From contig OX485804.1 of the NCBI GenBank assembly GCA_950295325.1, forward strand, positions 39,494,001 through 39,558,000: a stretch of DNA of 64,000 nt, given 5' to 3'. The DNA is from Polytrichum commune (taxonomy: Eukaryota; Streptophyta; Polytrichopsida; Polytrichales; Polytrichaceae). This document shows, piece by piece, positions 2,232 to 62,960 of the stretch. Below the pieces are notes generated by a model that ran no database searches, had not been told where the DNA came from, and was given only the letters and a program-made list of their open reading frames with translations. How positions within the stretch are numbered: the first letter of the stretch is position 1; each line of letters starts with the position of its first letter. The position numbers and the translations under genes are program-made.

Positions 2232-4214
2232 TCACATGAAGGATGAACGGATGACCGCGGTTACAGCAATTAGAGAAATTAGGATTCTCAAAGCGTTGCC
2301 CCCAGCTCGGCCGAGTAACCTGCCAGATGCTGAGGATTTGGATGTGCCGGATCCTGTAGATGCCGAGGTTGGAGACAACAAGACATTGGATTGCACGCCC
2401 ACCACGAACTTGCAGGTCCCGACCGAGGGGTCGGTGGTCGTCACCTGGGCCAGGCCTTGGAAATCGCAGGCGGCCGAGCTCTGGTTGTTGAATTGGTAGT
2501 AATTGTTGAAGGCGTACGACGCGTTGGCTTGCACGGATAAGCTACTGCAGGAGCCTCCAGGGAGTAAGGGGGTGCAATCCCCATGCTGGCAGGCGTAATC
2601 CACGTTGGCCGGCAACAGGGTTAGGTCGGCAGTGGGGTTCACCACACACCACTGGTTGGAGAAGTAGGGCACATTCTGGGCCGCCACCAGCTTCGTCTGC
2701 GTACCACTGGCTCCACCTGCAACATCCGATCAAATCCATATGCTGCAGCTGGTCATGAAAAAGGAAAGAAAGAAAGGAGAGACCTATGTTTGCCCACATG
2801 CTACTGCCTCAATCAGGAGACGGACTCTTTCTAACCGCCGTAACCAGCGCAGCTCGATCTTCCGTTGCCTCAATTAAGAGATGGACTCTCTTTAACGGCC
2901 GTAACCAGGGCAACTTGATCGTTCGTTGCCTCGGGAGACAGGGAATTATCGCATACGAGCATACCTCTCATCCATCCAGTTTCAAAACTTGGCCCCTAGA
3001 GGTTTGTTGCCGATTCATCTCAAATGACTTGCCTCTATCTAATTCAGGGTCTTTAAGGCCAATACCGGTGTTGAATAGACGAAAAAAAAAGCAACCTCCG
3101 GGATGCATTTTATTTCAGGGCTTTTACGTTGGATGAAAGAGATAATTATGCTCGTATGCAATAATCCCCTCTCTTCGTTGCCTCAATTGAGAAATGGGCT
3201 CTTTCTAACGGCCGTAACCATGACAACTCGATCGTGAGTTGCTTCAATTAAGAGATGGGCGCTTTGTAATGGCCGTAACCCAGGCCAACTTCATCGTCCG
3301 TTGCCTCAATAAAGTTGTGGGTATTGACAGCCTAGCAGGGAAGAAACAATGGACAACGAGTTGACCTGGTGACACCCACAATGCTTGGGTAGACTATATT
3401 GGGTTCTAGTAATATGGGTCGGTGGAAAATGGAATTCACACCACTCGCAAGGCAGAGATGAACCTCCAACCAGTGAAGCTCATGGATTGTTGCTTGGTGG
3501 TCATGATATCGTTGGATTTTCTCTTAGGTTTTTGAGGAACCTTGTGGAGTAGAAGGGTCATCCGTATCCACAAGGGAGTATCCACCATGGGAACAAACAG
3601 AAGGGCTCAAGAACAAGTAGAAGGGTCTAGGAACGCATGGGTTTTACGCCTGAGAAGGGTTTCTTGAGTCGGGAACTTGGGCTCCCATCCTTATTCCAGG
3701 ACCCTCTAATCCAGGTTGACAGAAATTAGTTTAGGGATATCGTAAGTGAAGACCGATCCATCGTAATTGAAGACGCCCTAGTCGAGCTCAAAGGGGCCGG
3801 GCCGGGTGATATGCTCACGTAATTAGCTACCGTAATTTCCATCATTCTGAGATGTGAACATCATTTAAAGTGAGGTAGATGTGCTTCACTGTGCAGTTCA
3901 CCTAGATTAATTTGGGGACACTTCAGGTGGAGGGTATAAATGTCAAGATGAATCAGCCATAAACCCCACGGATTCTAATTAGCCCTTGACATAGACAGAC
4001 ATGCAGACATTCCTGTAAGGTCCAGAGTGTATTCATCGATCCAATATGATTGATCATATGACATTTTGTTATTGAGGCCGATGTGCTTGAATGTGGGGTT
4101 CACCTAAGAAATTACTTCCTGATGGAAATTAACTTGGAATGAATCAGGCATAATGTAAGTAGGGGGTAGGTGTTAATTACCAGACCTCTTGGCTTCTACG
4201 AATGTACTAATTGG

Positions 4215-4249
<35 letters not shown>

Positions 4250-7200
4250 GTAAAACATTAATTAAGTACCTGTGAGGTCCAGTGTATATTTGACGGATCC
4301 GTCGTAATTGAACACACCCCAATGACGCTCGAACGGCCCGGGCAGGATGCTCTTGGCGTCCTCGTCCAGGAGGCTGAACAGGTAGCCCTCGATCTTCACT
4401 CCGGGTCGCAACGGCGTCCCCGTCCCGCTCTCCAAGTGGTTCACCAGCTGCTGATTAAATTTCTGCGACAAGGTGATATTCGCATACGGCGTCCCATCCG
4501 TCGGCCACCCGATTTCACCCACCACCACCTGCATGTTGGGGTACCCTGCCGCACTCAACGCGCTCACCAGCCCGTCGTAGCTCGCGTCAAACACGTTCGA
4601 GTACACGCGCGTGCCGTCCATGATTGGGTACGCGTAGCCCTCGAAAAACGCGAAGTCGAGCGGGAAATTGGTCCCGAGCACGAGGCTCAGAAATGGATAC
4701 AAATTCACCACGAACGGCGCGCCCGTGCTGTCGAGGAACGCCGCGATTTGGAGCATCAGCGGTGCGAGATCGGTCCGGAACGTCGCCTGAGACGGCAGGG
4801 TCGCGCTGCTCAGGATGTCTGCGTTGCAGGGCATCACTGCCTTCACCGTGTCTGCGTGTCCTGCGGCTTGTAAGGCAGCTTGCACATTTTTTAAGGCCGG
4901 GAGCGCTACGTCTTGGTACTTCCCGGCATAGCCATTCAGGAAAGGCTCATTCCCCACAGCCGCGTACCTGCAACACATACATACATAACCCTAGTCTTCA
5001 TCAACATCCAGTTCCTGCATTTGCAAACTCATCCCTAGTATCTCCTCCCATGGAAATTCATCAGTCTGTCCAGAAGATTGTTGGAATTATCATACAAAAT
5101 TGGCAGTCACTCTCTGGAAGACAAGTCCAGCTGCAGGACCTAGGCTGACCGAAATACTATCATCATCCAGCTCTTGGAAACTCTGTAACAAGTTCTTTTT
5201 CAATACATCTCTCATCTACTACATTATGTAACTGATTTTAGTGTGGATAATATTGATGTACTGCCATCATCACCGTTCAGCTCCTCCTCTTGCAAACTCT
5301 ATGGAGATTTATCAGTCCATTCAGAAGCTTTGTTGGAAATAGAATGCAAAATTGGCAGTCACTCTCTGACACAGAACTCCAGCTACAGGAGCTAGGCTTC
5401 AAATTCCATTATCATCCAGCTCTGGGAAATTCTGTCGCCAATCTTTTTTTCGAGACATTAATATCCGACTGCTCGTGCAAACTCTTCTCTTTAGTCTGTC
5501 CAAAAGATTGTTGGAATTAGAACTTCTCACTACATACTATCATCATCCAGCTCGTGCAAATACTCTCTCGTCCCATCAACAATAAGTTAGGCGTTTCCCA
5601 TACACTTCACTTCCACCACTGACACATGGAAAGCCATACAATATGTTGAGAATCTTGTTGTAATTAGCATCAAAATTGGCAATCACTCTCTGAAAGAAAT
5701 TCCCTCTCCAGCTCCCATCAACAATAGGTGTCTTCCATAGAATCTTCTACCACTCGCATCGGTGTCGATGCAGATCAGCACTCATGGCAGGAAATCCAAT
5801 CTGTCCATATTAAGCTTGTTGACATTTGCCATTCTCTTGCGCTCAGGTTTTGTCAGGTGGCAACCCCAGTCCCGTAATTAAGTAGCAAATTGTCCTCGAT
5901 ATTAAAGACTGGTGAAGATTAATTGTCGGTTCGAACAGAAGCTCAAGAAGCCTGTATGCCAATAGGAGCCGGCCTTACCAATCGACGATGTTTTTACGGA
6001 GGAAAAGCCAATAACAAAACGTTTCATGTTTTTGATGTGGTTTTGCCGACGAAGAATAATCTAGTTTGTTATCACCAATCTCTTTTACCACGATATTGCC
6101 GATTTTGTGTAGGCTTCACCTTCAAGTTGAGGATCAAATAAAAAAAGCAGTGACCAGCCTTGAGACAAAGCTCACCATCCGAGGCAAATGGAAGGACTCA
6201 AATTCCTTTAGTGCCTTGGCCCACCAAACTCGGTGCAAGTTTGGGCTGGAGCCCAAGTTGTGTGTAGCAACCCCATAAACAGTAGCAAATTGTGTGCAAG
6301 CTAGTTTTATCCTCGAGTTTAATCAAAGGCTGTAGTGAAGATTGATTTGTGGGTTTCAACTTGAAGATCGAACCAAACAAGCATGAAGCAACCTGAGACA
6401 AAGCTCACCATCTGACGCACATGGAAGGGCTCAAAGTTCCTCTTTGGCCCATCAAAACTCAGTGCAAGCTGGAGCTGGACCTCGAGTTGTGTGTGGGCAA
6501 CCTCATATACAGTACACTAAACACCTGATTTAGTGTGGCAGTAATGGCGTGCCAGGAGTGGTGGTCATGACATGTCATGTAGGGCACCCTAATTAATTCC
6601 CACCCGGTGATTTCCAGGGAATCAATGTGGGCACCACCAAATCAGATGATGTTTTAGTGTAGCAAATCAATGATCGGGGAGAACCGGCAGTTAGTTACAG
6701 ATGAACCGGTTGAGTTTGAGAAATAACCGGTTGAAGTTCAGGACTGCAGGAAAATTACCGATCATTTTGGAAGAATGTGTAGAATATACCCCAATTTAAT
6801 AAAGAAAAACCGGAGGATGTCAACATGTAACCGGTTGGACTTGCAAACACTAGGATCTCAACCGATTATGCCCAAAAATCTCCCCGATCATTGTAGCAAA
6901 TTGTGCAAGAAAAATATAATTTGTGGTATGGTGAAGGAGATTAATGACGATAAATTGTGTGGGATTGCTATATAAAATAATAAGGGGACATTCATGATTA
7001 ACTTACTTGATATTGACGCCACTGCTGCCACCTCCCAGGTACTGGGTCACGTTTTCCTTAACCCAAGCGGCAGCGGCATCCGCACTCCCTGCCAGTGCGG
7101 CCAGCATCTCGTTAGGGGCGGCCACCATGACCTCGATGTTGGTCCCTGCCATGGACCCAATGATAAGGGGATCTGCATCGAACAGCTTCACCTTGTTCAA

Positions 7201-7395
7201 GTTGTTGTCCTTAAGCAGCCCCACCACCACCGATGTGGGAAGGGGGTTGTAAGAAATAGTCCCCCAGTTCACCCCCACCGCTTCCACTGCCTCCCATGAC
7301 CCTATTGCTGTCCCCAGGACCACCATTCCCATAGCCAATAACCCTACCTGCACCATTCCCAAATCTGTCCAGCCTATCCTTCTTGATCTCGCCAT
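2232..7395 (-). CDS. GPI-anchored glucan endo-1,3-beta-glucosidase, GH17 plus X8 (CBM43) domain
   Basis: Three exons (7007-7395, 4270-4967, 2232-2716) join in frame at GT-AG sites to give 523 aa plus stop. Residues 1-40 form a secretory signal. The GH17 domain starts at the GVNWG motif (residue 41). The expected proton donor is E137 in AVGNEPF, whose codon context spans the first splice, and the nucleophile is E281 in VVVGEIGWP. The X8 domain runs from about W385 to 470 with six cysteines (386, 405, 410, 419, 446, 464). A Ser/Gly-rich linker and hydrophobic tail after 480 look like a GPI signal. The family hydrolyses callose-type glucan at the wall or plasmodesmata, and X8 binds the glucan. 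The closest recognisable clade is the plant GH17-X8-GPI group. Both introns and both flanks carry repeats. I see no lesion, so the gene looks functional; substrate and location are inferred from the family. Confidence 0.93.
2806..3330. repeat. minisatellite of about 61-63 bp in glucanase intron 2, split by a MITE
   Basis: Units at 2806, 2867, 3180, 3242 and 3302 read CGTTGCCTCAATTAAGAGAT, GGGCTCTTTCTAACGGCCGT and AACCAGGGCAACTCGATCGT with variation. A 228-bp MITE (2941-3168) divides the array. Confidence 0.7.
2941..3168. mobile_element. MITE with GGGATTATTGCATACGAGCATA ends, copy 1
   Basis: The left end (GGGAATTATCGCATACGAGC, then ATACCTCTCATCC) pairs with the right end (GGATGAAAGAGATAATTATG, then CTCGTATGCAATAATCCC). 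It interrupts a minisatellite in intron 2 of the glucanase gene. A related copy is at 47152-47373. Confidence 0.65.
4215..4250 (+). repeat. CAGA microsatellite
   Basis: About nine CAGA units, one interrupted by CAAA, close to the donor site of the glucanase second exon. Confidence 0.85.
4990..5760. repeat. degenerate tandem repeat in glucanase intron 1
   Basis: Units near 5010, 5280, 5480 and 5640 share TGCAAACTC, TCAGTCTGTCCAGAAG, TTGTTGGAATTA, AAATTGGCAGTCACTCTCTG and ATCATCCAGCTC. The period is irregular at 150-270 bp. Confidence 0.65.
5855..6510. repeat. second tandem duplication in glucanase intron 1
   Basis: GGCAACCCCA-CAGTAGCAAATTGT, TGGTGAAGATTAAT, GAGACAAAGCTCACCATC, ATGGAAGG-CTCAAA and GTTGTGTGTAGCAACC recur with a period of about 240-400 bp; units start near 5867, 6145 and 6380. 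Confidence 0.6.
6512..6662. mobile_element. TIR element with CTACACTAAA ends, copy 1
   Basis: Left end GTACACTAAACACCTGATTT is the complement of the right end AAATCAGATGATGTTTTAGTGTAG with small gaps. No coding sequence. The hAT MITE inserted at its right edge. A second copy lies at 50368-50549. Confidence 0.65.
6668..6893 (+). mobile_element. hAT-type MITE, 226 bp, perfect TIR and TSD
   Basis: The ends are perfect 15-bp inverted repeats, CAATGATCGGGGAGA and its complement. The flanks are an identical 8-bp duplication TAGCAAAT at 6660-6667 and 6894-6901, diagnostic of hAT-superfamily insertion. The interior has several AACCGGTT motifs and no coding capacity. It lies in intron 1 of the glucanase gene and abuts the end of another inverted-repeat element. 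Confidence 0.9.
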
Positions 7396-7462
7396 AGCCT
7401 CGACCTAACCAACCTTGGGGGGTGCGAGGGGTTAAGGTTCACTCGGACTCCCTAACTAATAT

Positions 7463-19325: not shown

Positions 19326-20339
19326 TCACATGAAACATTGTTCATCCCCTGTTGTTCTTGAATCTTGTGAATTGTTTTGATGACCGGCCATGAACAATCC
19401 TTGACAAGGCCAACCTACAACAACTAAGTTGATGGGCCCATGTATTGTGATTTCTTCCCTAGAAATCAATGAAATGTCACTTGGCAATGCAATGAATGCC
19501 CTCTTTGTAACAATCCTTGGCAATAACGTTGGAAATCACTTCCTCAACTTCTCTGTGTGATGTATGGCCACCTTCTTTGCCAATCCATTGTTGTCCACAT
19601 ACAAATAACGTCTCACTTTAGTACTAGCTTGAAGAACAACTACTAATCCAATGGCTACCTCTCCAAACAACTCCAATAGAGTAATACCTTCCTTTGAAGG
19701 TTGCCAATGTATAGTAGAGGTATCTAAGGGTGGCCCCATGTCCTTGATAATATCAATGCCCCCTTCTTCTTCATCGTGTGGTAACACAACCCATTGCCAC
19801 ACCTCTTGGATTGGTTTTGTAGCAACATTTTGTAAATCTTCAACGTTACCCCATGTAGATTTTTCTATTTGTAAAGACTCTTCATTGATGTCATCAATGC
19901 CTTCCAATTCTTCATTTTCTTCTAATGTGCTAGAGGAAGGGCATTGTGTACGTGGTGACCCCCACTCATGGAAGTCTTCTTCAAACCGAAGGGCTTCATC
20001 ATTTACAAACCCAGCAAAGCAATAGGTATCAGCCATATTACCAGTAAGAACTTGAATAAATCGAGTTGGCAACTGAGCCTTTCACCCATCTCATGCTTGC
20101 CATTTTGGCCTATAAATGGTTGTTTCCATCCAAAAGTCTAAGGTTAAACCCATCGGGTACAATCCCATAGCCCCTACCAAAACATCATAAGACTTGGCCT
20201 CCGTGACCAATTCACACTTTCCACTCACACACTCATACTCAAGCCCACTCACATGTCCCAAACAATTCTTACAATACCACTCCTCACACGAAAAAATATG
20301 TAATCTTTGGTACTCTAGGCGCGGCCTAGCCTTCTCCAC
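19326..20339 (-). pseudogene. Ty3-type fragment: protease-like end plus N-terminal half of C5 DNA methyltransferase
   Basis: Three consecutive minus-strand frames form one decayed reading. 20091-20339 has Cys-rich CEEWYCKNCLGH, then YDVLVGAMGLYPMG, resembling the C-terminal end of a retropepsin-like protease. 19536-20072 has an acidic linker, then GITLLELFGEVAIGL (C5-MTase motif I, normally F-G-G-I-G-T-G) and RRYLYVDNN (motif II). 19326-19523 has LPSDISLISREE and VVVGWPCQGLF, i.e. motif IV with an intact Pro-Cys-Gln. Similarity ends a few codons after motif IV. The block around motif IV (LP-D-LI, GP-D/N, GW-CQG) matches the 62.8-kb element, so both derive from one element type. Frameshifts and a stop make it non-functional. 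Confidence 0.75.
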
Positions 20340-30600: not shown

Positions 30601-32630
30601 AGGTGTCCTAGTAAGAAAAGTAATCAAATAATGGTTGTGTACCTTACACATTGTCTTTACTCCAACTGCACAGATTCCAGTTTAGATGCCAATGCCTTTA
30701 TATTCAAGGATCAATATGTTCCAGCAAGGGTTGTAATTTCTGGCTTTTTGTTTAAGCAGGAAGCAAGCTCTTACCGAGGTACAGGCACTTGCAGCTGTGG
30801 GTGAGTCCCATCTGTCATTATGTTGATGGTCTGTAAATTTAATCAGCATGAAATATCATGTAGTTACACATTGTGATGTAGAGGGATCTTGCAGTACACA
30901 AGCAACATAGTGGAACTCGGGCATTTTTAATTTGATTAATTAATATGTTATTTACTCACTGTTGTTTGACCTGATAATTTGTCCATATGCACAACCTGTA
31001 TTTTTTGAGTCCAGGGGCCCATAAAAATATAGTAAGGTATCACACCGCTTGGTTTGAGAGTGACTTCTGCTACATCCAAATGGAGCTTTGTGACGGAACA
31101 CTTACTCAATTGCGAGAATCAGACCCAGATATTTCAAAGGAATGCTCATTGCTGAAAATTCTGCGACAGGTATATCCTAGGAACCCACCAAATGTATAAA
31201 TTCTTCAACTTGATCTCTCTCAACTGTCATTGCTTCCTTGAACAGAAGTGGAACTTGCTCAATACTAAGCACATTCATCTTTAATTCCGAAGCATCTTCA
31301 ACCCCAATCTGGGCCTCTTCATGCACACAACGAGTATTTGAGCTACATGCTTTCATTTTGAGCTAATTTTATGTCAATAGTGATTGTAATTAAAACTTAC
31401 TCATTTTTCTAGTGCACTTTCAAATTGGATTCTATTACACAACTTGGGTTTCCTTGGATATACAAGGACATGCCTAGTATTTTGATCATCAATGTCACTT
31501 GATAATTTTTGAATTTTTTTCCTTGACATAAGATAATGTACTAAATAAAAACTTAAGCCCACATATAAAAAATATGGCTTTAAGACTTGGTGAGGCTTAT
31601 AGAAATTGTGTATGTAGGTCGTTAAAGGGTTAACTCTTCCACAAGGTGTTGGATTTATACCCTCAAATATGGTGTGCTGTAGCAGTTTTTTATGTACAAC
31701 CTTTTTAAGCCTGACAAATTGCCTTGGCATGTTAGATGTTGAACGCACTGTCAAGAATTCATTCCAAAGGTTTAGTCCATCTGGATGTAAAACCCGACAA
31801 TATTTATGTACTCAACGGTGTTTACAAGCTAGGTGACTTTGGACGTGCAACACGAGCAGATGGAAGTTTGAGCATTGAAGAAGGTGATGCTCGCTATGTT
31901 GCTTTAGAGATTATAAATGACGATTACAGTCAACTACCAAAAGTTGACATGTTTGCTCTTGGTGCAACAATCTATGAAATGGCGAGAGGGTCACCTTTAC
32001 CCTCCTCAGGGTCACAGTATCAATCTTTGCGGCAGGGGAAAATTAGCCTTTTGCCAGGCTGTTCCTTGCCATTCCAGAACATCTTGAAGGTATGCCAACT
32101 TGTCTGTCCAAGAGAATTAGTATCTGCTTCTGTAAGAGGAACTCAGTACATAGAGTTGGCCTCTAACTTGACAAGAGTTTTGTCTGGGAGTTGGATGTTT
32201 GGATATAATACCTTCCATGTTCAGTTGGTGCATGCTTGGAGCTAGTGTGAAGCGTTTGAATGAAGAACATTCTATATCGATTTGTTGAGGATCAAACTCA
32301 AGGTCCTTCAAAGTTTGGTACCTTTTTAAGGAGATTTGCAGATAACTCTCTTGGAAAATTTTCTTATAGATTTTGCACATGATGTTTTTTTTGTTTGCTG
32401 AAGCAGATTCTGGTAGTACATGATCATTGACGAAAGTGATCAACATGCACACATTACGTTTGTCAATCATCAATGTGCTCTAATGAAAAATGCCTTGGTT
32501 TTTTTTGCAGAGCTTACTGCATCCAATGGCAAAGTTAAGACCAACAGCTGATGAGCTGCTCAAGAATTCCATCTTCAACCGAGATGATTCTTTAGAGACA
32601 TCAACAAGTCCTGGTGATGTGTCCACGTGA
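27546..32630 (+). CDS. WEE1: WEE1 protein kinase
   Basis: Ten exons join in frame: 27546-27784, 28580-28637, 28772-28838, 29141-29410, 29903-29985, 30081-30190, 30760-30800, 31015-31169, 31736-32089 and 32511-32630, giving 498 aa, close to the usual plant WEE1 length (about 500). The N-terminal regulatory part has the plant WEE1 motif SQDFFCTPDFITP (split by the first intron) and a basic RVKRPRS stretch that may be a nuclear signal. Kinase landmarks are the glycine loop GRGNFSRV (242-249), lysine K264 in YAVKR, catalytic D358 in HLDVKPDN, D375 in GDFG, and EEGDARY downstream. WEE1 inhibits cyclin-dependent kinase by tyrosine phosphorylation at the replication/DNA-damage checkpoint. The donor at 29410 (GTGGGT) is the only weak splice call. 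The start codon lies in the third copy of a tandem repeat, so the true 5' end, possibly with an upstream non-coding exon, is uncertain. Confidence 0.95.
29512..29800. mobile_element. TAGCATTC-family TIR element in WEE1 intron
   Basis: Ends TAGCATTCCTAAG and TTAAGAATGCTA are inverted. The interior has GTAACAATGAGGTGTTAACT and ATCAAGGACCTTG as in the other copies. Non-coding. Confidence 0.6.
30283..30630 (-). repeat. CACCTATATTTGAG interspersed repeat in WEE1 intron
   Basis: GTAGATGGGTCTTACATGG, CAAAGTGAAGATTTTCGTGC, AAACATGTCTCTTTGG and CAAATATAGGTGTCCTA match the 12785-13110 copy along most of its length. Confidence 0.55.
32167..32325. repeat. partial fold-back element (left arm) in WEE1 intron
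   Basis: TTGTCTGGGAGTTGGATG, GTTGGTGCATGCTTGGAGCT and TTTGAATGAAGAACATTCTA match the left arm of the 38.75-kb fold-back family; the right arm is absent. Confidence 0.55.
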
Positions 32631-54909: not shown

Positions 54910-55020
54910 CTTATCGTGTAAATAATGATCGTGTATCACTTCAGCTCGAACACCAACCTCCACTAATCAAACAACACTAAAACATAGCAAAGTCACTCAT
55001 AAACAACACACCTCGACAGA
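54910..55020 (+). repeat. direct repeat, copy 1
   Basis: GTGTAAATAATGATCGTGTA, CCACTAATCAAACAACACTA and TAAACAACACACCTCGA recur at 55348-55465, 435 bp away. Confidence 0.6.
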
Positions 55021-55347
55021 GAAGAAAGATAGTCAAACCCTTGCAAGAGCTTTAATTTTCTCTTCAAATGTACATAATGAGTCAAACTATCTTTCACTCT
55101 ACTACGGGAGAATCCAAGAGTGTAAGAAAAGGGAGAAGAACTCAAGATTTATTGCAAAAACATGCAATCTTCACCTCATACAAGCTCTCTCCACACACTC
55201 ACCCACAAGACTTGACTTGGCAAGAATGCCAAGCCAAGGAGGAGGCTCCTCACTTAGGAGCCTTTCTCTCCACATCTAAGATTTATCCATTCAAATTTAA
55301 ATGAATGAAACCCAACGGATAAGGTGCGGCCGCCGAAGCCAAATACC

Positions 55348-55465
55348 GTGACAACTGTTGTGTAAATAACGATCGTGTGTCACTGCAACTCAAGTACCAA
55401 CCACCACTAATCAAACAACACTAAAACATAGTAAAATCATTTATAAACAACACACATCGATATGC
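55348..55465 (+). repeat. direct repeat, copy 2
   Basis: Counterpart of 54910-55020. The DNA between the copies holds a short open frame (55068-55304) and a TTGGCAAGAATGCCAAGCCAA inverted repeat near 55219-55238. This could be a small LTR-type element or a tandem duplication. Confidence 0.6.
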
Positions 55466-56363
55466 CCCCCCTCAACTGACTATGGAGTCCCGCCAAACAG
55501 CTAGGACCAATGCCAATCCAAAGGGCATGGATAATGAAAAATTACTCCGCAACTAACTAGTGTGGTGAACATCATTTTAAAGAACTGTAGGTTGGATGTA
55601 ATGTGAGCCTCATCCTTAATCGCCTCTGATGTTTGGCCATCAGATTCCAAAGAATTAGTTCCACCGCCTCATGTTGATTGCGTCTCTAAGCCATAACTCT
55701 TCATTTTCCATTTGGGCATGCACAAGATGATGAAAACCACATAAGATCATGGAATACGATTGGTGGAAGCACCAAGTACCAAAGATCCTCGACAGCGAGG
55801 ACAACTCCACTGTCTAGATGGTAGAGAAGTCAAGGGTGGCCTCAAGCATGTCCACGGGTAGATCACTCTAAGGCATTTTTGTGCACCACGTGCGGTTGGG
55901 GTTTTTTTTTGTTTTGGGGCTATTTACCTTTAAGGGTTGAATTAAAGCCTCCCAATAATTACTTAAATTTCAAAAATGGCCCATTTGTTTCCACCCTTCC
56001 ATTACTTATATTATCCAAGTCACTGTAATTTTTTGTACTCTATATTCCTTTTAAGTAATAAAGGCTAATCTACTTCCTAACGCAATTGACGAGTGTTCAG
56101 GGAAAGCATGAAAACAAAGAAGGGTGCAAACAATAATACCATAAAAACAGAGTTATGAAGAAAACACATAGGAGACCATAGCAAAGTAATACCATTGCAA
56201 ACACTATTATGATGAAAACACATAGGATCCTTATCTTCAACCCCTATATTAATTTTACAAAAAAATAATGGCCCACGTTTTATGTCCATCTAACTTACTT
56301 ATAATGGGATTGCCTACATTTAATGGCCCCTTCATTACTTGAAATTCCTTTATAATTTTTATT
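55466..56363. other. downstream flank of the Ty3 element, LTR not recognised
   Basis: A 3' LTR would be expected here, but no matching copy is found upstream of 63.3 kb. Duplicated ATGAAGAAAACACATAGGA strings near 56155-56225 are a local tandem repeat. Confidence 0.4.
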
Positions 56364-56873
56364 TCAAATGATTTTAATCCTCTCTATATTATGCCGCACG
56401 TCATTTTTAAAATGCACTAAGTGATCTACCCGTGAGCATGTCATGTGCCAACCACATTGACACTGATCAGACAAGAGCATAGTAGCCGCTCGTTTCTTCT
56501 CTCCACACACAAAATATGGAAGACCCTCTAGCACGACAGCCAGTTTAGAATGAACTGTATCCTCAATGGGTAGATGACATGGGACACAGTTTTTGGAATG
56601 CTCGCGACATTCCCTACCATCATTGCCTTCCAACAACAACAAACCACTCGGCAACACCTCCTTCACCCGAAGGATAGTATGCCCCGCCCTGACATCCAAT
56701 GTTGTAGGCAACTCACGTTGGAGATAAACATAATCCCCCTGTCGGAATCTTCGCAACTGAGGTCGGTAAGCACCACTACGAATGCGTGCATAGCGCAATG
56801 TATCATGGTGTTGAGCAATGGACAGATTTTCCATGGCCATAGGCACGGCCCTCTGAAAGAATTGAGCCCGCTC
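56364..56873 (-). pseudogene. integrase C-terminal tail with degenerate PHD-like finger
   Basis: In the same frame as integrase, beyond its TAG, the sequence gives a basic tail (RYARIRSGAYRPQLRRF) and RQGDYVYLQRE-type residues typical of the post-core integrase region. After a linker comes a Cys/His cluster: YFVCGEKKRAATMLLSDQCQ followed by CGWHMTCS. The spacing and the GWHM-C ending match the first half of a PHD finger (Cys-x2-Cys, Cys-x2-Cys, His-x2-Cys), with two ligands substituted. PHD fingers read histone H3 tails. Many Ty3 elements carry a chromodomain here, so a PHD finger would be an alternative chromatin tether. Moderate confidence because half the ligands are lost. Confidence 0.6.
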
Positions 56874-56876
56874 CTA

Positions 56877-57857
56877 CAAATACTTTGCCCAAATGTTTGG
56901 GTCGTCCAAGTCCCCAACAGGAGCTAACTTTTTCCAAGTAAAACTCGGGAGTATAGGCTCACATTCATACAACGACTGATACGGGTTGTAGGACGCCAAA
57001 GAGGCATGCATACTAAATCGATAGCCCATAGCAATCCAATGCAACATAAGGTTCCAATCCCGATGACTCCCCCGAAGTAATCCATACATCTTCAAGCCAC
57101 GCTTGGTTGTCTGAACAACCCGTTCAGCCAAGCCATCCGCCTCCAGATGATCCCGAGAGGTGGTGCGGTGATCTATGAGCGCCTTAGTGCACAACTCCTC
57201 AAAAGCACCAAGAGACTCCCTTCCTTGGTCCGTCAATACCTCAGCCGGTGCTCCAAAACGTGCCAACACACGATCCAAAAAGGTGGCCGCAGCCAACTCT
57301 GTAGAATTTTGGGGTACATCAACAAGCTTAATCCACATGCTAAAATGCTCCACCATCACCAACACGTACTTTGTTCCACGTGGCGTAACAACCAACGGTC
57401 CCGCAGAGTCCAATGACCAACGGTAGCCCAATCCCATGATAGGTAAGGGTTGTAACTGAGGTGACAAGGTGTTAAAGCTATATCTGACCCGGTCACAAAC
57501 TTCACACCTCCCAACATAAGCAGCCACCTGTTGATACATGCCAGTCCACCAATATTGGCCACGCAACATTGAATGTGTCCTACGTATGCCAAAATGTCCA
57601 AGTTCCTCATGCACTTGTCGCACCAAGGAAGCCCTCTGATCTACTATACGACTTGTCCCATCTGACCACAATCAAAATAACAAAATGTTCTCCCAATGAA
57701 ACCTTGTTATTCGATGTCCAATCCTATCCCTTTCCATTGCCGAGGTAGACGAAGGAAATGTCCCCTGCTGAAGCTTATGCAATACGGGGAGATCTTCCCA
57801 TATATCCGCAATAGCTTGAGGTCGATCAATCTCATCATCCGATGTCGTGTAAGAAAT
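56877..57857 (-). pseudogene. Ty3-type integrase (H2C2 finger and DDE core), interrupted
   Basis: The HHCC zinc finger is intact: His residues in HEELGHFG and Cys residues in CEVCDRV. The catalytic triad is recognisable as Asp in SLDSAGPL, Asp in LTDQGRES and Glu in ADGLAERVVQ. The frame extends upstream to about 57857 (DDEIDRPQAIADIW) across a TGA at 57672-57674, and stops downstream at TAG 56874-56876. The upstream end meets the nested insertion. It would catalyse strand transfer of element cDNA. Confidence 0.85.
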
Positions 57858-58009
57858 GGTTTAATAAGTAAATATAATGTGAAATGTTTTGAGAATAGGG
57901 TTTAAAACTAAAAAAAATAAAACTAAAAAAAATAAAGGTATAGACAAAAGGGAGGGGGGAGATCAGAGGAATGAGGGGAGAAGAGAAAGAACCGTGGTTA
58001 GAACCACGA

Positions 58010-58190
58010 AACTTAGAGTCACATGCTCAAAGGGTAGGTGGCGCCAACTGGTAGTTATCTGCCTAGTTTTCACCAGCAGTTTCAAGCCACGTGGCCATTC
58101 GCCTGCTCATACGGGTCCAGAGGGTTTCGAACCCGGACCAGTGCTATGGCGCTTGAAGCACTTTACCAGTTGGGCTTCCGCGGCTTGGCG
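58010..58190 (-). repeat. tRNA-derived SINE head
   Basis: On the minus strand an A-box-like segment (GCCCAACTGGTAAAG, within 58161-58180) is followed after about 30 bases by a perfect B-box core GGTTCGAAACC (58124-58134). These are the internal RNA polymerase III promoter elements of tRNA genes. The flanks do not pair into an acceptor stem, so this is a SINE or tRNA relic rather than a working tRNA gene. Confidence 0.6.
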
Positions 58191-58437
58191 TTTATCAGAG
58201 CATGCTGAAGGGATTTATATTCCTATCCATTGTTTATACGTTTTTTTATTTTTTATTTATTTAAGTGGATTTGAGTGGAAGAAAGAATCATATATTTTGG
58301 GGAAGCTTTAGAATAACGCATTCTTACTAGAAAGTATTTGGGTTACAAGAAGAATGACCATTTCAGAGCTTCACCAGTTTGATGTGATTATTTTGATTTT
58401 TTTTTTAACATGTCGAATTGGAGAGTTTTGTCTGAGT

Positions 58438-58859
58438 CTTAAGATGAAGAACTTCAACCAGAGCTTGAGCTGGATTTTTCTTTATCTCAACTGCCGACTC
58501 GTACTCTTCTACCACTTAGTCATTTACCACTGCATGAGCGTCCACAAGAAGAAGCTGGCCCTTCTCGGCCGTTGAAGCAACCTTGTGTGGAGCAGCGGTG
58601 ACACGGAAACCTTCAACAAGATGCTCGTGCATTGGTGATTTTGTTGCAAGCTGGATGTGTTGAACCTAACACTCGGGATGTGACATTTGGAGGAATTTTT
58701 GAACGCTTAAATGACGATCAATATTTTTGTTGTCTTGAGCCTGCGAAAGGAAATTACGGCCATCAACATTGGCTACAAGGTCCAGTTAATCCATTGTCTA
58801 AGGCTGATCGTGCGGACTACGTTGCAGTTATTCTTCGACGCATCTTCAAGTTCTTGTAG
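58438..58859 (+). pseudogene. unidentified decayed ORF inside the nested insertion
   Basis: A frame starting at about DEELQPELELDF runs to TAG at 58857-58859 with one internal TGA near 58600. It has an acidic, Leu/Pro-rich first half and a second half with DVTFGGIFERLNDDQYF and KGNYGHQHWLQGPVNPL. A stop lies immediately upstream. Codon-like composition suggests former coding sequence, probably carried by the inserted element. I do not recognise the family. Confidence 0.4.
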
Positions 58860-60379
58860 TTGGAGTGAAATTCCTTTTGGAATTCTTTTTAATATCATTT
58901 AGAAATATATTTGAGGTTATATGTTTTGTTTTTTTTGTTTTTCAAATTTCATCTTGTGTGCTTGAAGTTTGGTAAATGAAAGGTAGAAATAGTTTACCAT
59001 TTTGGTAGACTTTTGATGCCTTATGGCTAAGATAAGGAAATGACAAGGATTAAAGGATAGATAAGAATTAAGGGATAGATAAGGATGAAGTAAGCCTATT
59101 TGGGTTAACCAATGACTAGTTGAAGCCCATATGACATAGGTTTGGGTTAGTGTTGACTTTGGCGAGGAAGTTAAGAGGTTGACCCCTCTCTCCTCAAGGA
59201 GGTGTATTGACAAGGATTAATGATAGATAATGATTAAGGATAAATAGGGATGAAATAAGCCTATAGGGGTTAACCAATGACTAGTTGGAGCCCTTGTGAC
59301 ATAGGTTTGGGCTAGTGTTGACTTTGATGAGGAGGCTAAGGGGTCGGCCCCTCTCTCCAAATGGGATTGTGGAGTTTTAGTTTTAGTGTGTGTGTATGGA
59401 GGGCGAGAACTCAGTGTGTATTTGGAATTTTTCTATAAAAATTTGAGAGTTTGTACATCTTGTCGGTGTGATTCCGAAATGCTATAGCACGCTCCATTCG
59501 GACTTTGTATGTGAATTCTATGAGTGTTAGAGTGAAACTATGTTTGTTGTAAAGAAATTTAGAAGACCATGACTTCAAAAGCTTGTAAAAATTTATGTAT
59601 AGTGTTTTTGTTTATGAAATTTGAGTGAGTGATGTGTTATTGTACCAGCTCTTTATGAAGCTTTAAAATTCTTGATTTAGAGTTTTGAAGAGAAAGTTAT
59701 TGCCTTCAAGGCAAGAGGGTGTTAAGCTGCCAACTAGATTCAACAATGAAAGTGTGTACCAACTTCAACAGAGCATAGAAAACGTTTGGTAAGGATTTTT
59801 AAAATGAAATTTGGAGAAAACATGTGTGATGTTGTTAGCTTTTCAAAAAGCTATCACTTGGCATTAGCAAAGCTTATATGAAACCAGAACGTCCTATGAA
59901 GTGAAGGGAGGTACAACTAACAATGAATTTGGTTGTATGACCTTTGACAAGCTATGAAACTTCGACAGTATTTTACTAACCTTTAATATCTATTTTATTT
60001 TGTTAAGCACTTTGATAACTTTCCAAAATGCTAAAATACTCTTGATTTGGAGTAATTATGTTATTTTGGTGGTTCTTCAAAGTTTGGCTACAATTTTAGA
60101 GAGAGATCCGGGATTTTGAATATATGTATAAAACTTATATGGGTTTGTATATATGATGTATTCAAAGATGAATATTTTTTACATTATCTTAGTCTCCCAT
60201 GTCTTAAGCCAAAACTAATTGCAGCTAGAAATCCAGTATTTTCCCAAAGCAAAGACTTCTCTACCTGACACCGAGCCTTGTATCGGAACCTCAACAACCG
60301 CACCAAAAAATAAAGTGAGGTAAGTAGTCGCGTGCTAACTTGGAACCACCTTTCGATTACAATCTCCATGTCACCTGGC

Positions 60380-60848
60380 CCCGGTCAAGTCTTCATCCAA
60401 AGGACTTGGATTGCGTGAGAGTCCATTTGCATCCAAATTGGTAATCCCAACACGGCGTACTACCTCAAAGTCATACTCCTAGAGCAATAAAACCCACCTG
60501 GTGAGCTTGCCAGTAAGCTTATTTGACTCCATGAGCCACAATAGCCCACACTGCCGCCAAAGTTTTTCCCTCGTATGACGAATAATTGGCCTCAACCGTA
60601 TTGTTGTTTCGCGACGCGTAAGCAACAACGTACTCCCGGCCAAAGTCATCCTTCTAAGTGAGAACTGCTTCCAAACCCAATGAGCTCCAGTCCGTATGCA
60701 ACTGGAAATATTTGGAGACATCTGGACGTCGAAGCACTGGAGCCGTATCCAGTTTCTGCTTCAATGTCTCAAATATTTGTTGATGCTCATGACCCCAAGT
60801 CCAAGGTTGGTCCTTGCTCATGAGAATGGTGAAAGGCTTTGCGATCAA
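60380..60848 (-). pseudogene. RNase H and connection domain of the Ty3-type element, internally deleted
   Basis: The block starting MSKDQPWTWGHEHQQ and ending FQLHTDWSSLGLEAVLT is the Ty3 connection/RNase H start, with the first catalytic Asp in HTDWSS. It is followed by TAG (60654-60656), then REYVVAYASR and ANYSSYEGK with the conserved Glu region. The sequence then jumps directly to WLMESNKLTGKL, so the segment holding the middle RNase H strand is deleted. A second TAG at 60479-60481 is followed by EYDFEVVRR and NLDANGLSRN, the usual end of the domain. Confidence 0.8.
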
Positions 60849-60866
60849 GCTAAAGTTTTTGATGAA

Positions 60867-61828
60867 TCAACGATAGTAATTCGCCAAGCCCAAGAAAACA
60901 CAAAGTCTCGGCACATCGACCGGTGCCGGAATCTTCTGCAAGGCGTCCACCTTAGTTTGCTGCATTCCAAGACCTTCTAGAATAATCATATGACCTAGAT
61001 ATGCTAGTCGGTCATGGAAAAACTTGCATTTGTCATGGTGCAAGTGCAATTCCCACCGCCGCAACCGCTAAAAAAAACTTGCAGATGCCTTACATGCTCT
61101 TGTGGTGTCTTGTTGAAAATGATCACGTTATCAATGTAACACCGAGCAAAGGGCAAACCAGAGAGAACTTGGTCCATCACTCTCTGAAACTTAACAGATG
61201 CACTCTTGAGGACAAATGGAAGAAACTTCCAATGATACAGTTAATCCTTCCCTTCATGATCAACTCCCCAGAATGTGGTTCTCACTCAATCTCCCACAAG
61301 TAATGGGAGCTGGTAATAGCCGGATCTCAAGTCCAATGTTCTAAAGACCCGAAAAAATCCAATGGCATCAAACAACTCCTCTGGGATTGGCACGGGATAC
61401 CGATCCGACTTGGTCTTCAGATTAACTAGACGGTAATCCCCGCACATCCGTTTTTCCGTCCAATTGCCAAAAATATCCTTCTTCGATGGCATAACCGTAG
61501 CACAAGCATACTCCCCGTTGGAAAGTTTGATTAGCCTTGCTACCAAGAGCTCTTGGCAACGAGCCTGAATGCCAAACCGCTCGGAAACATTGAGCCTATA
61601 AGGTCTCTGGAAAATGGGATGGTCGTCCTCCAACTTAATGTGGATGGGTTTTCCTTTATAACCTTCAAGATCCTGAAGGCTAAAAGCAAAACACCTATGG
61701 TACGAGCGAATAAATGATCGTATTTTTTGTGTCTCAGCACTAGTGAGATGAGGGCCTAATTCCAATGGCCAATCATCAAACTTTGTGGTATCCCTCTCTA
61801 CCAGAGGAAAGCCACCTGGTGCTGGCAC
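60867..61828 (-). pseudogene. Ty3-type reverse transcriptase, inactivated
   Basis: The frame 61286-61828 has a linker, the fingers motif KRMCGDYRLVNLKTKSDRYP and the palm segment FRTLDLRSGYYQLPL with the first catalytic Asp. It is cut by TGA at 61286-61288. Downstream the frame resumes with the LSGLPFARCYIDN motif. The catalytic box should be Y-x-D-D but reads YIDN (61127-61138), removing one metal ligand. The thumb/connection block HHDKCKFF, LAYLGHMI and FLGLANYYR lies at 60867-61064. It is the polymerase of the element and is non-functional here. Confidence 0.85.
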
Positions 61829-61840
61829 GGACTCTAACTG

Positions 61841-62960
61841 CTACTGAGAGGAGGGGGCATTAACCATGCCCCTAACCTCCGTGATAGCAATAGAGTCCAT
61901 CCCCTCTTCATCACCACCAATATGTGATGATGAAGCCACCATCGGAGGTGAAGAAGCCAAAGCAGTATAAATCCGTTGAGCTCGGAGCTCATCCATCACT
62001 TGCTGCTCGAATCGAAAGATTCGTTCGGCTTCTCTTACCATGACCTCAATTCCCTCCTCCGTAGATGTGGACCGTTGTGCCCCTTGACCAAAATCCTTTG
62101 CCCCCAGAGACAACATTTGGTCACCATGATGTCGTTGCAATGCAAGGCATAAACCAACAGTCCATACCATGGTATGAAGATCCATGGCTTGGCCCAATAC
62201 GAAGCGTCGTTGGCCCTCAGAAAGGCCAAAAGTTGCGGTGGTGCAAGTGCGGAATCCCATGGCACACTCCCGTTCGTCAGCCAATGGTTCAGTGTGGGTT
62301 TTGGTGTGAGCATCCCACACCATACCCGGCCCCCGATCGCGGAAAGTGAATGACTGTGGAAACGTCATAAAGGTGGGAAAGGCCCGCCGTGGTGCCCCCA
62401 CTTTGTTGACCAATGCCAACGGGGGTAAATCATCTCGAACAACCGGCAAAGAGGTCCGGTTTGGATCCAAGATATCATCCACCTTCTGATCAAAAGGTGG
62501 AGGCACTGCAGAAAATGCTGCAGCTAAAGTAGATGACGGTGCGAGGTTGGTCCAGATCCACCGAGGCTGGTGGGCATAAGAACCAATGCTCGTGGCATCC
62601 ACAAAAATGGATCTCCATAATGTTGACGAATATAATGACCGCCTTCCAACACCTTGTCCCGAGAGTCGCCCAACAAAATTACATTCTCGAAGATATACCA
62701 TGGAGGGGAAGGTTGGTGGAAAAACCACCACTGCATGAGGCGGATGAGGTCCCAAAAATAGATTAGACCTGGGATCCTCTAGACCTTGGCATGCTCTAGC
62801 ACGTGAATGGCCTTGGCATGACCATCCCGCAGTTACCATATCCACCGGACCCAAGTGTCGTAAGTCGGCCTCAGTGATGAGTGTGACATCACGAGGGAGA
62901 CATGAAAAACACCCATGAATGGCAGTCGGGTGTAACTGTTCGCTTTGGCAGGATATCCCC
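61841..62960 (-). pseudogene. retrotransposon-encoded cytosine-5 DNA methyltransferase, C-terminal half (motifs IV-X)
   Basis: Motif IV is present as AGWSCQGHS, with the catalytic Cys codon at 62816-62818. The family has Pro before that Cys; here it is Ser. Motif VI is YIFENV (ENV codons 62680-62688). SYAHQPRWIWTNL resembles motif VIII. The RRAFPTF and ERECAMGFR blocks and SEGQRRFVLGQAMD correspond to the target-recognition/motif IX-X end. The central part from about 62.75 to 62.60 kb is in another frame, reached by one gained and one lost base in T-runs, so the two shifts compensate. Motif I (SAM binding) is missing. A coiled, Glu/Arg-rich linker and a TAG at 61841-61843 separate the domain from reverse transcriptase. 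The assignment to the C5-MTase family is strong from motif order; activity of this copy is excluded. Confidence 0.85.

Follow-up and report, generated by a model that had tools for sequence, protein, structure and literature searches.

Hosts methylate cytosines to silence transposons, and an element family that keeps a methyltransferase (MTase) under selection therefore runs against expectation. This question is raised by a 64,000-nt stretch of Polytrichum commune DNA (contig OX485804.1 of assembly GCA_950295325.1; hereafter the window), in which a preliminary description had recognized a cytosine-5 (C5) MTase domain directly upstream of reverse transcriptase (RT) in a Ty3/Gypsy-type polyprotein. 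Well-preserved relatives of the element allow us to ask why a mobile element carries a tool that its hosts use for silencing.

A decayed element with a methyltransferase remnant

The window contains a 5'-truncated copy interrupted by two insertions (Table 1). A 376-aa frame (62,971-61,841, minus strand) holds MTase motifs IV, VIII, IX and X. On the same strand, GWSCQG of motif IV was found at 62,827-62,810, QPRWIWTNL at 62,569-62,543, ERECAMGF at 62,275-62,252 and LGQAMDL at 62,197-62,177. FENV of motif VI (62,691-62,680, minus strand) lies in a frameshifted stretch, in a frame different from that of the other motifs. Truncation at about 62,956 has removed motif I, and no gag, protease or repeat A or B was detected in the 5.6 kb upstream from 62,901 (tblastn and blastn, E ≤ 1e-3). 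With motif I lost, the catalytic PCQ changed to SCQ and its frames shifted, the window copy is, as it reads, dead. It retains the repeats B1-A2-B2 at 55,462-54,912. Searches of the window with Rfam and ARAGORN gave no match.

The ordered C5-MTase motifs that had been reported on one strand were thus recovered on the minus strand, though FENV lies out of frame with the others. Downstream on that strand come RT, RNase H and integrase, as had been stated, with RNase H parted from integrase by the ~2.4-kb insertion. The adjacency of MTase and RT also held, but an in-frame TAG lies at their border. The Pfam search that had been proposed as a check gave a divided answer. Compared with the DNA_methylase profile, the 376-aa frame stayed below the curated cut-off of 22 bits (18.9 bits, E = 1.1e-3), whereas an intact relative, L001, was above it (45.9 bits, E = 6.8e-12). 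The frame matched 87 proteins at E ≤ 0.01, the best at 2e-143 with 89% identity, and many of these contain PF00145. Given the 87 protein matches and the score of L001, the MTase match of the window copy is not a chance result.

Table 1. Coordinates of the element copy and of a second, older relative within the window
Feature	Position	Strand	Remarks
Whole decayed, 5'-truncated MTase-bearing Ty3/Gypsy copy	54,912-62,956	minus	protein and DNA matches to L001 and genome copies
Boundaries of the copy	5' break near 62,956; 3' end near 54,912	minus	
DNMT3-type C5 MTase remnant (predicted), motifs IV to X	61,844-62,956	minus	motif I absent, motif VI frameshifted
In-frame TAG at the MTase/RT border	61,841-61,843	minus	
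CAG TTA after the TAG	61,835-61,840	minus	fits UAG-CAR-YYA, as defined in PMC3542737
RT and start of RNase H, two frames	60,540-61,840	minus	
RNase H end and linker	60,272-60,544	minus	
Later insertion, ~2.4 kb	57,843-60,271		between RNase H and integrase
Integrase (zinc-binding and core), C-terminal part, first half of PHD finger	56,436-57,842	minus	
Second insertion, ~0.6 kb	55,849-56,435		inside PHD finger
Second half of PHD finger	55,783-55,848	minus	
Polypurine tract GAGGGGGGGCA	55,463-55,473	minus	directly before repeat B1
Repeat B1	55,356-55,462	minus	
B1/A2 junction, putative internal integrase site	55,346-55,363	minus	GACA-gc-TGTC in intact copies, mutated here
Repeat A2	55,019-55,353	minus	86-88% identity to A of seven intact copies
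GCATTCTTGCCAAGT within A2	55,215-55,229	minus	complementary to primer site after A1 of intact copies (putative self-priming)
Repeat B2, element 3' end	54,912-55,018	minus	
Second, older relative: protease end and N-terminal MTase half including motif-I region	19,353-20,261	minus	32% to L001

The older remnant in Table 1 is 47% identical to P0025 and belongs to another subfamily. Elsewhere in the window, host gene pieces with two GH17 stretches and an X8 domain were found at 2,232-7,404 (minus strand), together with a protein kinase exon at 31,736-32,245, which we take to be of the WEE1 type. By themselves, these gene pieces and the element's relatives would point to a land plant, probably a bryophyte. 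A 165-bp tandem repeat occupies 59,041-59,358, inside the ~2.4-kb insertion.

Relatives in the host genome and in other sources

Using the MTase fragment of the window as query against the host assembly (407.8 Mb, 64 contigs), at least 109 genome copies were scored from 738 first-look candidates. With P0040 as query, at least 121 copies were scored from 472 candidates, in a list that overlaps the first. This second list revealed another MTase-bearing family, in which 14 of the 121 rows (e.g., C4:33931212 and C1:24461152) have an open frame of exactly 1,386 aa; the identical frames suggest a very recent expansion.

The intact relative L001 is a 9,285-bp contig (CADCWO010000201.1), presumably from desert crust, that was binned with a cyanobacterial metagenome-assembled genome (MAG) and whose ends are identical over 127 bp. 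It reads as one element: a gag-like part, protease and MTase share one frame and are followed, in frame, by RT, RNase H, integrase and a PHD finger. Two CCHC-like stretches were seen by eye in the gag-like N-terminal part, which had no match to a Pfam gag or knuckle domain. The aspartic protease match fell just under its cut-off (20.5 against 24.3 bits); in another relative, P0097, protease and MTase both exceeded theirs. Contamination would be the simplest reading of a plant element in a bacterial bin. A related MTase ORF labeled Candidatus Obscuribacterales (P0005) is, like L001, probably plant contamination of this kind.

Intact members have the gene order Gag-protease-MTase/RT-RNase H-integrase-PHD, and the RT-RNase H-integrase order with a DDE integrase is that of Ty3/Gypsy elements. 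The same domain order was observed, as far as the ORFs extend, in Marchantia polymorpha (P0107, P0109, P0110, P0112, P0114, P0133, P0145), Calypogeia fissa (P0105), Closterium (P0140; P0123, partly) and many unnamed records. Metagenomes, too, contained relatives of the window element, and a search of viral contigs with P0011 and ORF2 of L001 found none. Distant MTase-like matches on IMG/VR contigs (L002 and L003; 27 and 36%, alignment A1 search) lie outside this family.

A conserved UAG at the MTase/RT border

We examined the border between MTase and RT in 80 copies, including that of the window; of the 109 scored, the 29 lowest-scoring rows were left out. All 80 have an in-frame TAG, whereas any other in-frame stop is common to at most six (ungapped offset, 150 codons each side). 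The exact motif TAG CAR YYA occurs at 74 borders (52 TAGCAATTA, 21 TAGCAGTTA and 1 TAGCAATCA); the remaining six read TAGTAGTTA (two copies), TAGCAATTG, TAGCAGTTG, TAGAAGTTA and TAGCATTTA. In 35 of the 80 copies an uninterrupted frame of 366 codons or more leads to the TAG. Beyond it, 17 of the 35 have no further stop in the fetched DNA, which reaches about 300 or 500 codons. For the P0040-derived list, 12 of 121 rows were fetched for border reading. The second family has TAG CAA TCA in 11 of 11 fetched copies, and a third, divergent family (L124) has TAG CAG CCA in the one copy fetched. L001 likewise reads TAG CAA TCA; the nucleotide context of the stop comes from the copies of this genome and from L001 only. 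UAG-CAR-YYA is described as the type I readthrough motif of tobamoviruses (PMC3542737). The codon after CAR encodes L, S or P in different families and its nucleotides stay YYA, a pattern expected from selection on readthrough and not on the peptide. Since the motif is kept across families, translation should yield a Gag-PR-MTase product and, through readthrough, Pol; the stop context would predict the amount of enzyme made.

Protein collections were compared by domain pieces. The MTase runs into RT within one ORF in 14 of 242 proteins, including Closterium P0140 and three of the seven Marchantia models (P0110, P0133, P0145); either the clade includes members that lack the stop, or it was passed over in gene models. 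RT lies ahead of the MTase in another 19 of the 242. Among 92 proteins with MTase and motif X and without RT or integrase, 39 end 92-158 residues past motif X, each with one of a few C-terminal sequences that recur. Such an outcome is expected of a conserved stop, although the end patterns were picked after the ends had been seen.

Affinity of the methyltransferase and selection on it

In a PDB profile search with 27 relatives, DNMT3A ranked first (E = 1.8e-19), with DNMT3C and DNMT3B at about 2e-18. Weaker matches were 4onj, named only DNA methyltransferase (8e-10), DRM2 (9.6e-10), HhaI (6e-8) and DNMT2 (2e-5), and DNMT1 was not among the 57 matches listed. An AlphaFold model of the L001 MTase domain (33-sequence alignment; mean pLDDT 86.4) was submitted to Foldseek. 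The best 50 of 207 matches (E ≤ 0.001) were all DNMT3 chains, the first with E = 1.7e-18 and a TM score of 0.83 by target length. By profile and predicted structure the element MTase is thus DNMT3-type, with its motifs in unrearranged order and closest to DNMT3 among C5 MTases.

Among the 35 open copies, GWPCQG was present in 30, FENVP in 29 and HRPRWIWTNL in 32, and five exact motif strings were each found in 29-32 of the frames. The E and N of motif VI are kept in at least 90% of rows in alignments A1 and A2, as is the PCQ cysteine in alignment A2. Pairwise dN/dS was calculated over 300 MTase codons in the 35 open copies (595 pairs) and over 200 RT codons (231 pairs, a set filtered for open frames). 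Median ratios for the MTase were 0.27 at dS 0.1-0.2 (198 pairs) and 0.25 at dS 0.2-0.4 (275 pairs); those for RT in the same bins were 0.13 (61 pairs) and 0.12 (58 pairs). At the level of sequence, the MTase is under purifying selection. In young pairs (dS 0.02-0.10) the medians were 0.67 for the MTase (57 pairs) and 0.07 for RT (59 pairs), which suggests more relaxed selection on the MTase in recent copies. Between L001 and the genome copies, the MTase had a median dN of 0.31 and a median dS of 2.46, which is near saturation, with dS undefined in 8 of 35 comparisons.

Element ends, split repeats and priming

Both ends were fetched for ten copies chosen for long open frames. An exact 4-bp target duplication flanks all ten; duplications of 4 or 5 bp are described for most plant Ty3/Gypsy lineages (PMC6317226). 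The element starts with TGTCACGG in nine copies and TGTCATGG in one and ends with ACACGACA in all. Its 5' end is formed by repeat A (A1) in each of the ten, 333-334 bp long where measured. With ten further copies fetched at the 3' end only and also chosen for long frames, 20 3' ends were available. Fourteen have B (106 bp), 2 bp, A (333 bp) and B (106 bp), four have B alone and two have no B, so that B-A-B accounts for 14 and B alone for 4 of the 18 readable ends. Instead of a complete LTR at both ends, the copies have split repeats, A...B-A-B or A...B. Where both A1 and A2 are present, in seven of the first ten copies, the two are 99.1-100% identical, and the insertions are therefore recent.

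A primer site beginning ACTTGGCAAG directly follows A1. It is complementary to 12-15 nt inside A in nine of ten copies (one was not parsed), and L001 has the same pairing between primer site and A over 13 nt, with changed letters. The polypurine tract given in Table 1 directly precedes B1 in L091 as well as in the window copy. From the positions of this tract and of the primer site, the conventional LTR would be B-gc-A and the genomic copy its circular permutation. A palindrome, GACA-gc-TGTC, marks the B/A junction of intact copies and is also present in L001, and the ends of genomic copies correspond to a cut at this palindrome inside the B-gc-A LTR. If a one-LTR circle were opened there, A...B would result, and a two-LTR circle would give A...B-gc-A-B; both forms match those seen. 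The repeats thus predict a circle-based route of integration.

An RT clade with two kinds of methyltransferase

From an RT-RNase H search we took the best 120 of 2,241 matches and built a FastTree phylogeny of 117 sequences. A single clade of 108 (support 1.0) contained all 30 sequences labeled as C5-MTase carriers and four carriers of a Dam-type MTase. The nine sequences outside it included a chromodomain element and RTs from Chara, Tanacetum and animal Gypsy elements. The remaining 74 clade members were labeled as having no MTase in the ORF seen; many are ORF2 pieces that would exclude it, and a recount by domain pieces found an MTase in two (P0230 and P0239). Members without an MTase in ORFs that may be partial came from Haematococcus (P0194, P0196), Myrmecia (P0231) and Klebsormidium (P0172, P0212). 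Deep nodes inside the clade were weak (0.12-0.58), too weak to order gains and moves.

Relatives have the MTase in one of two slots, between protease and RT or between RNase H and integrase. The latter was noted in P0118, P0120, P0121, P0122, P0201, P0203, P0218 and P0219, although in P0118 and P0122 only an MTase before integrase is visible. MTase and RT trees were correlated (Mantel r = 0.75, 0/2000 permutations) over the 21 of 30 elements with a long enough MTase, as they were within the slots (r = 0.72, 9/2000, and r = 0.87, 0/2000). MTase and RT have thus been inherited together across a clade with members in Closterium, liverworts and the host of the window, and the genetic model Marchantia polymorpha is among the carriers.

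Four relatives, P0229, P0237, P0238 and P0241, carry a Dam-type N6-adenine MTase ahead of RT, and each of them scores above the PF05869 cut-off. This MTase follows protease in the three of the four ORFs that reach protease, and a PHD finger lies between RNase H and integrase in three of the four carriers. Selection for DNA modification itself, and not for an effect on one host pathway, is hinted at most strongly by this exchange of unrelated MTases within one slot; the exchange also suggests that modification, and not the particular base, matters. The PHD finger of the family resembles those of chromatin proteins such as CHD4, PHF12 and UHRF1.

Proposed mechanism and alternative explanations

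The land-plant element family supposed in the preliminary description is borne out by the relatives in Marchantia and Calypogeia. The statement that the family "had" such a strategy puts it too far into the past, as many long open frames and near-identical repeats are present. Neither of the two outcomes named as speaking against the proposal was obtained: a C5-MTase match was found, with profile and structure placing the domain with DNMT3, and no element boundary separates MTase from RT, which relatives hold together within defined ends and target duplications.

The window preserves a dead copy of an element whose intact members encode Gag-PR-C5 MTase, a UAG in readthrough context and Pol, and we consider it probable that such members read through the stop, methylate their cDNA and integrate from circles. 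Most ribosomes would stop after the MTase, and Pol would arise by UAG readthrough. As part of Gag-PR-MTase, the enzyme would reach Gag-like amounts and be packaged along with the RNA, whose own A repeat would prime reverse transcription. Its most likely target would be the cDNA of the element itself, and methylation would mark or protect this DNA ahead of integration. Circles with one or two LTRs would then be opened by integrase at the LTR-internal palindrome GACA-gc-TGTC and inserted with 4-bp duplications. Weighing against this reading are the high MTase ratio among young pairs, the six borders that depart from the exact motif, the proteins with MTase and RT in one ORF and the clade members without a visible MTase. 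A wider proposal is offered more tentatively, as one that may well be right but that we stop short of favoring. It holds that an old green-lineage Gypsy clade depends on a carried MTase, either C5 or swapped for an adenine type, for its own cDNA. Its bryophyte members would combine leaky-stop Gag stoichiometry with integration of circles at the LTR palindrome and not at cDNA ends, so that the puzzling DIRS-like repeats would reflect circular permutation.

The MTase might instead act in trans on the host genome and alter methylation or silencing to the element's benefit. Retrotransposon DNMT domains are reported to have given de novo CG methylation in yeast (PMC5890265), and the likeness of the PHD finger to those of chromatin proteins would fit such a role. 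The Gag-linked placement and the joint descent with RT suggest a role in the particle, however, and the Klebsormidium methylome is described as not highly divergent, though with fewer copies there (PMC5890265), so we regard action in trans as unlikely. Slightly less likely again is a possibility raised in the same paper, that the MTase is a brake: new copies would be marked in advance for silencing by the host and copy number kept in check, favoring element and host alike. The silencing of plant transposons by methylation is in keeping with a brake, but the high copy number and near-identical repeats (99.1-100%, seven copies) show recent bursts. It seems more improbable still that the domain persists for something other than catalysis, for instance to bind RNA or DNA inside the particle. 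The weaker constraint on young copies and the fact that only 29-32 of 35 open frames retain the five exact motif strings would agree with this, but GWPCQG in 30 and FENVP in 29 of those frames, the E and N of motif VI (at least 90% in alignments A1 and A2) and the PCQ cysteine (alignment A2) argue for activity, and replacement by an unrelated Dam-type MTase points to catalysis.

The UAG could also be a plain terminator, with ORF2 expressed via reinitiation, splicing or a separate transcript. ORF1 and ORF2 stand apart in protein collections, and the MTase-to-RT models of Marchantia (P0110, P0133, P0145) could reflect splicing or stop loss. Against this, ORF2 continues in frame directly from the stop and the readthrough consensus of the six following nucleotides is kept in four lineages; we would give a plain terminator about the same low chance as the brake. 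A host MTase pseudogene lying by chance beside an unrelated retrotransposon might be imagined from the window copy alone, which is broken and whose Pfam match is under the cut-off. Its chance is negligible and it was rejected, since the same border recurs in 80 of 80 genome copies examined and in the metagenomic contig, and ten copies have defined element ends.

Comparison with known systems

The literature matches listed, in a search with little coverage of subscription journals and preprints, included no title on a bryophyte Gypsy-DNMT, a Dam-type MTase in Gypsy or readthrough in such elements. A 2025 study of DNMTs (PMC12344493) describes DNMT3s in LTR Copia and DIRS elements of streptophytes and dinoflagellates. 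The main text of the plant LTR element catalogue of Neumann et al. (2019; PMC6317226) is without the words methyltransferase and PHD. That paper describes the self-primed chromoviruses Tf1/Sushi and Tcn1, whose primer site is complementary to their own 5' repeat, as here; the present element differs in its PHD finger, its permuted repeats and the lack of a detected chromodomain. Membership in the chromoviruses was rejected on the PHD finger in place of a chromodomain, for which L001 gave no match. With type I readthrough of tobamoviruses, as described in PMC3542737, the element shares the stop and the six following nucleotides, but here the stop lies between Gag-PR-MTase and RT of a retrotransposon, and readthrough is predicted from sequence.

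Separate DNMT captures have been reported in dinoflagellates and one charophyte (PMC5890265). SymbioDIRS-Dnmt3 and SymbioLINE-Dnmt of Symbiodinium are likewise retrotransposon-borne C5 MTases, but on tyrosine-recombinase (DIRS) or LINE backbones, whereas the present element has a DDE integrase and 4-bp duplications. The DIRS elements with Dam-like adenine MTases named in the same paper also combine an MTase with split repeats; they differ in MTase fold and recombinase, and Dam-type MTases occur here in Gypsy relatives as well. Assignment of the present element to the DIRS order was rejected, given its DDE integrase and 4-bp duplications in place of a tyrosine recombinase.

The closest counterpart is KnitGypsy-Dnmt3 of Klebsormidium nitens, described as a Gypsy element with a DNMT3 in its Pol ORF, DIRS-like repeats and purifying selection on the MTase, and interpreted by its authors as acquired independently within the lineage of K. 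nitens (de Mendoza et al., 2018; PMC5890265). The Klebsormidium RTs P0172 and P0212 fall in the RT clade described above, with no MTase in the ORFs seen. The present element shares the Gypsy domains, a DNMT3-type MTase within a Gypsy polyprotein, purifying selection on it and the DIRS-like layout, with A-B-A-B repeats (B-A-B at 14 of 18 3' ends, A1 in 10 of 10 copies). Compared by description, the MTase of KnitGypsy-Dnmt3 lies inside the Pol ORF, whereas that of the present element ends the Gag-PR side at a conserved UAG. The words readthrough, PHD and target site do not occur in the main text of PMC5890265. Beyond KnitGypsy-Dnmt3, our analysis adds the land-plant distribution, the stop context, the Gag-side placement and the PHD finger, together with exact ends and 4-bp duplications, predicted self-priming, a pair of repeat forms pointing to circles, and the exchange for a Dam-type MTase.
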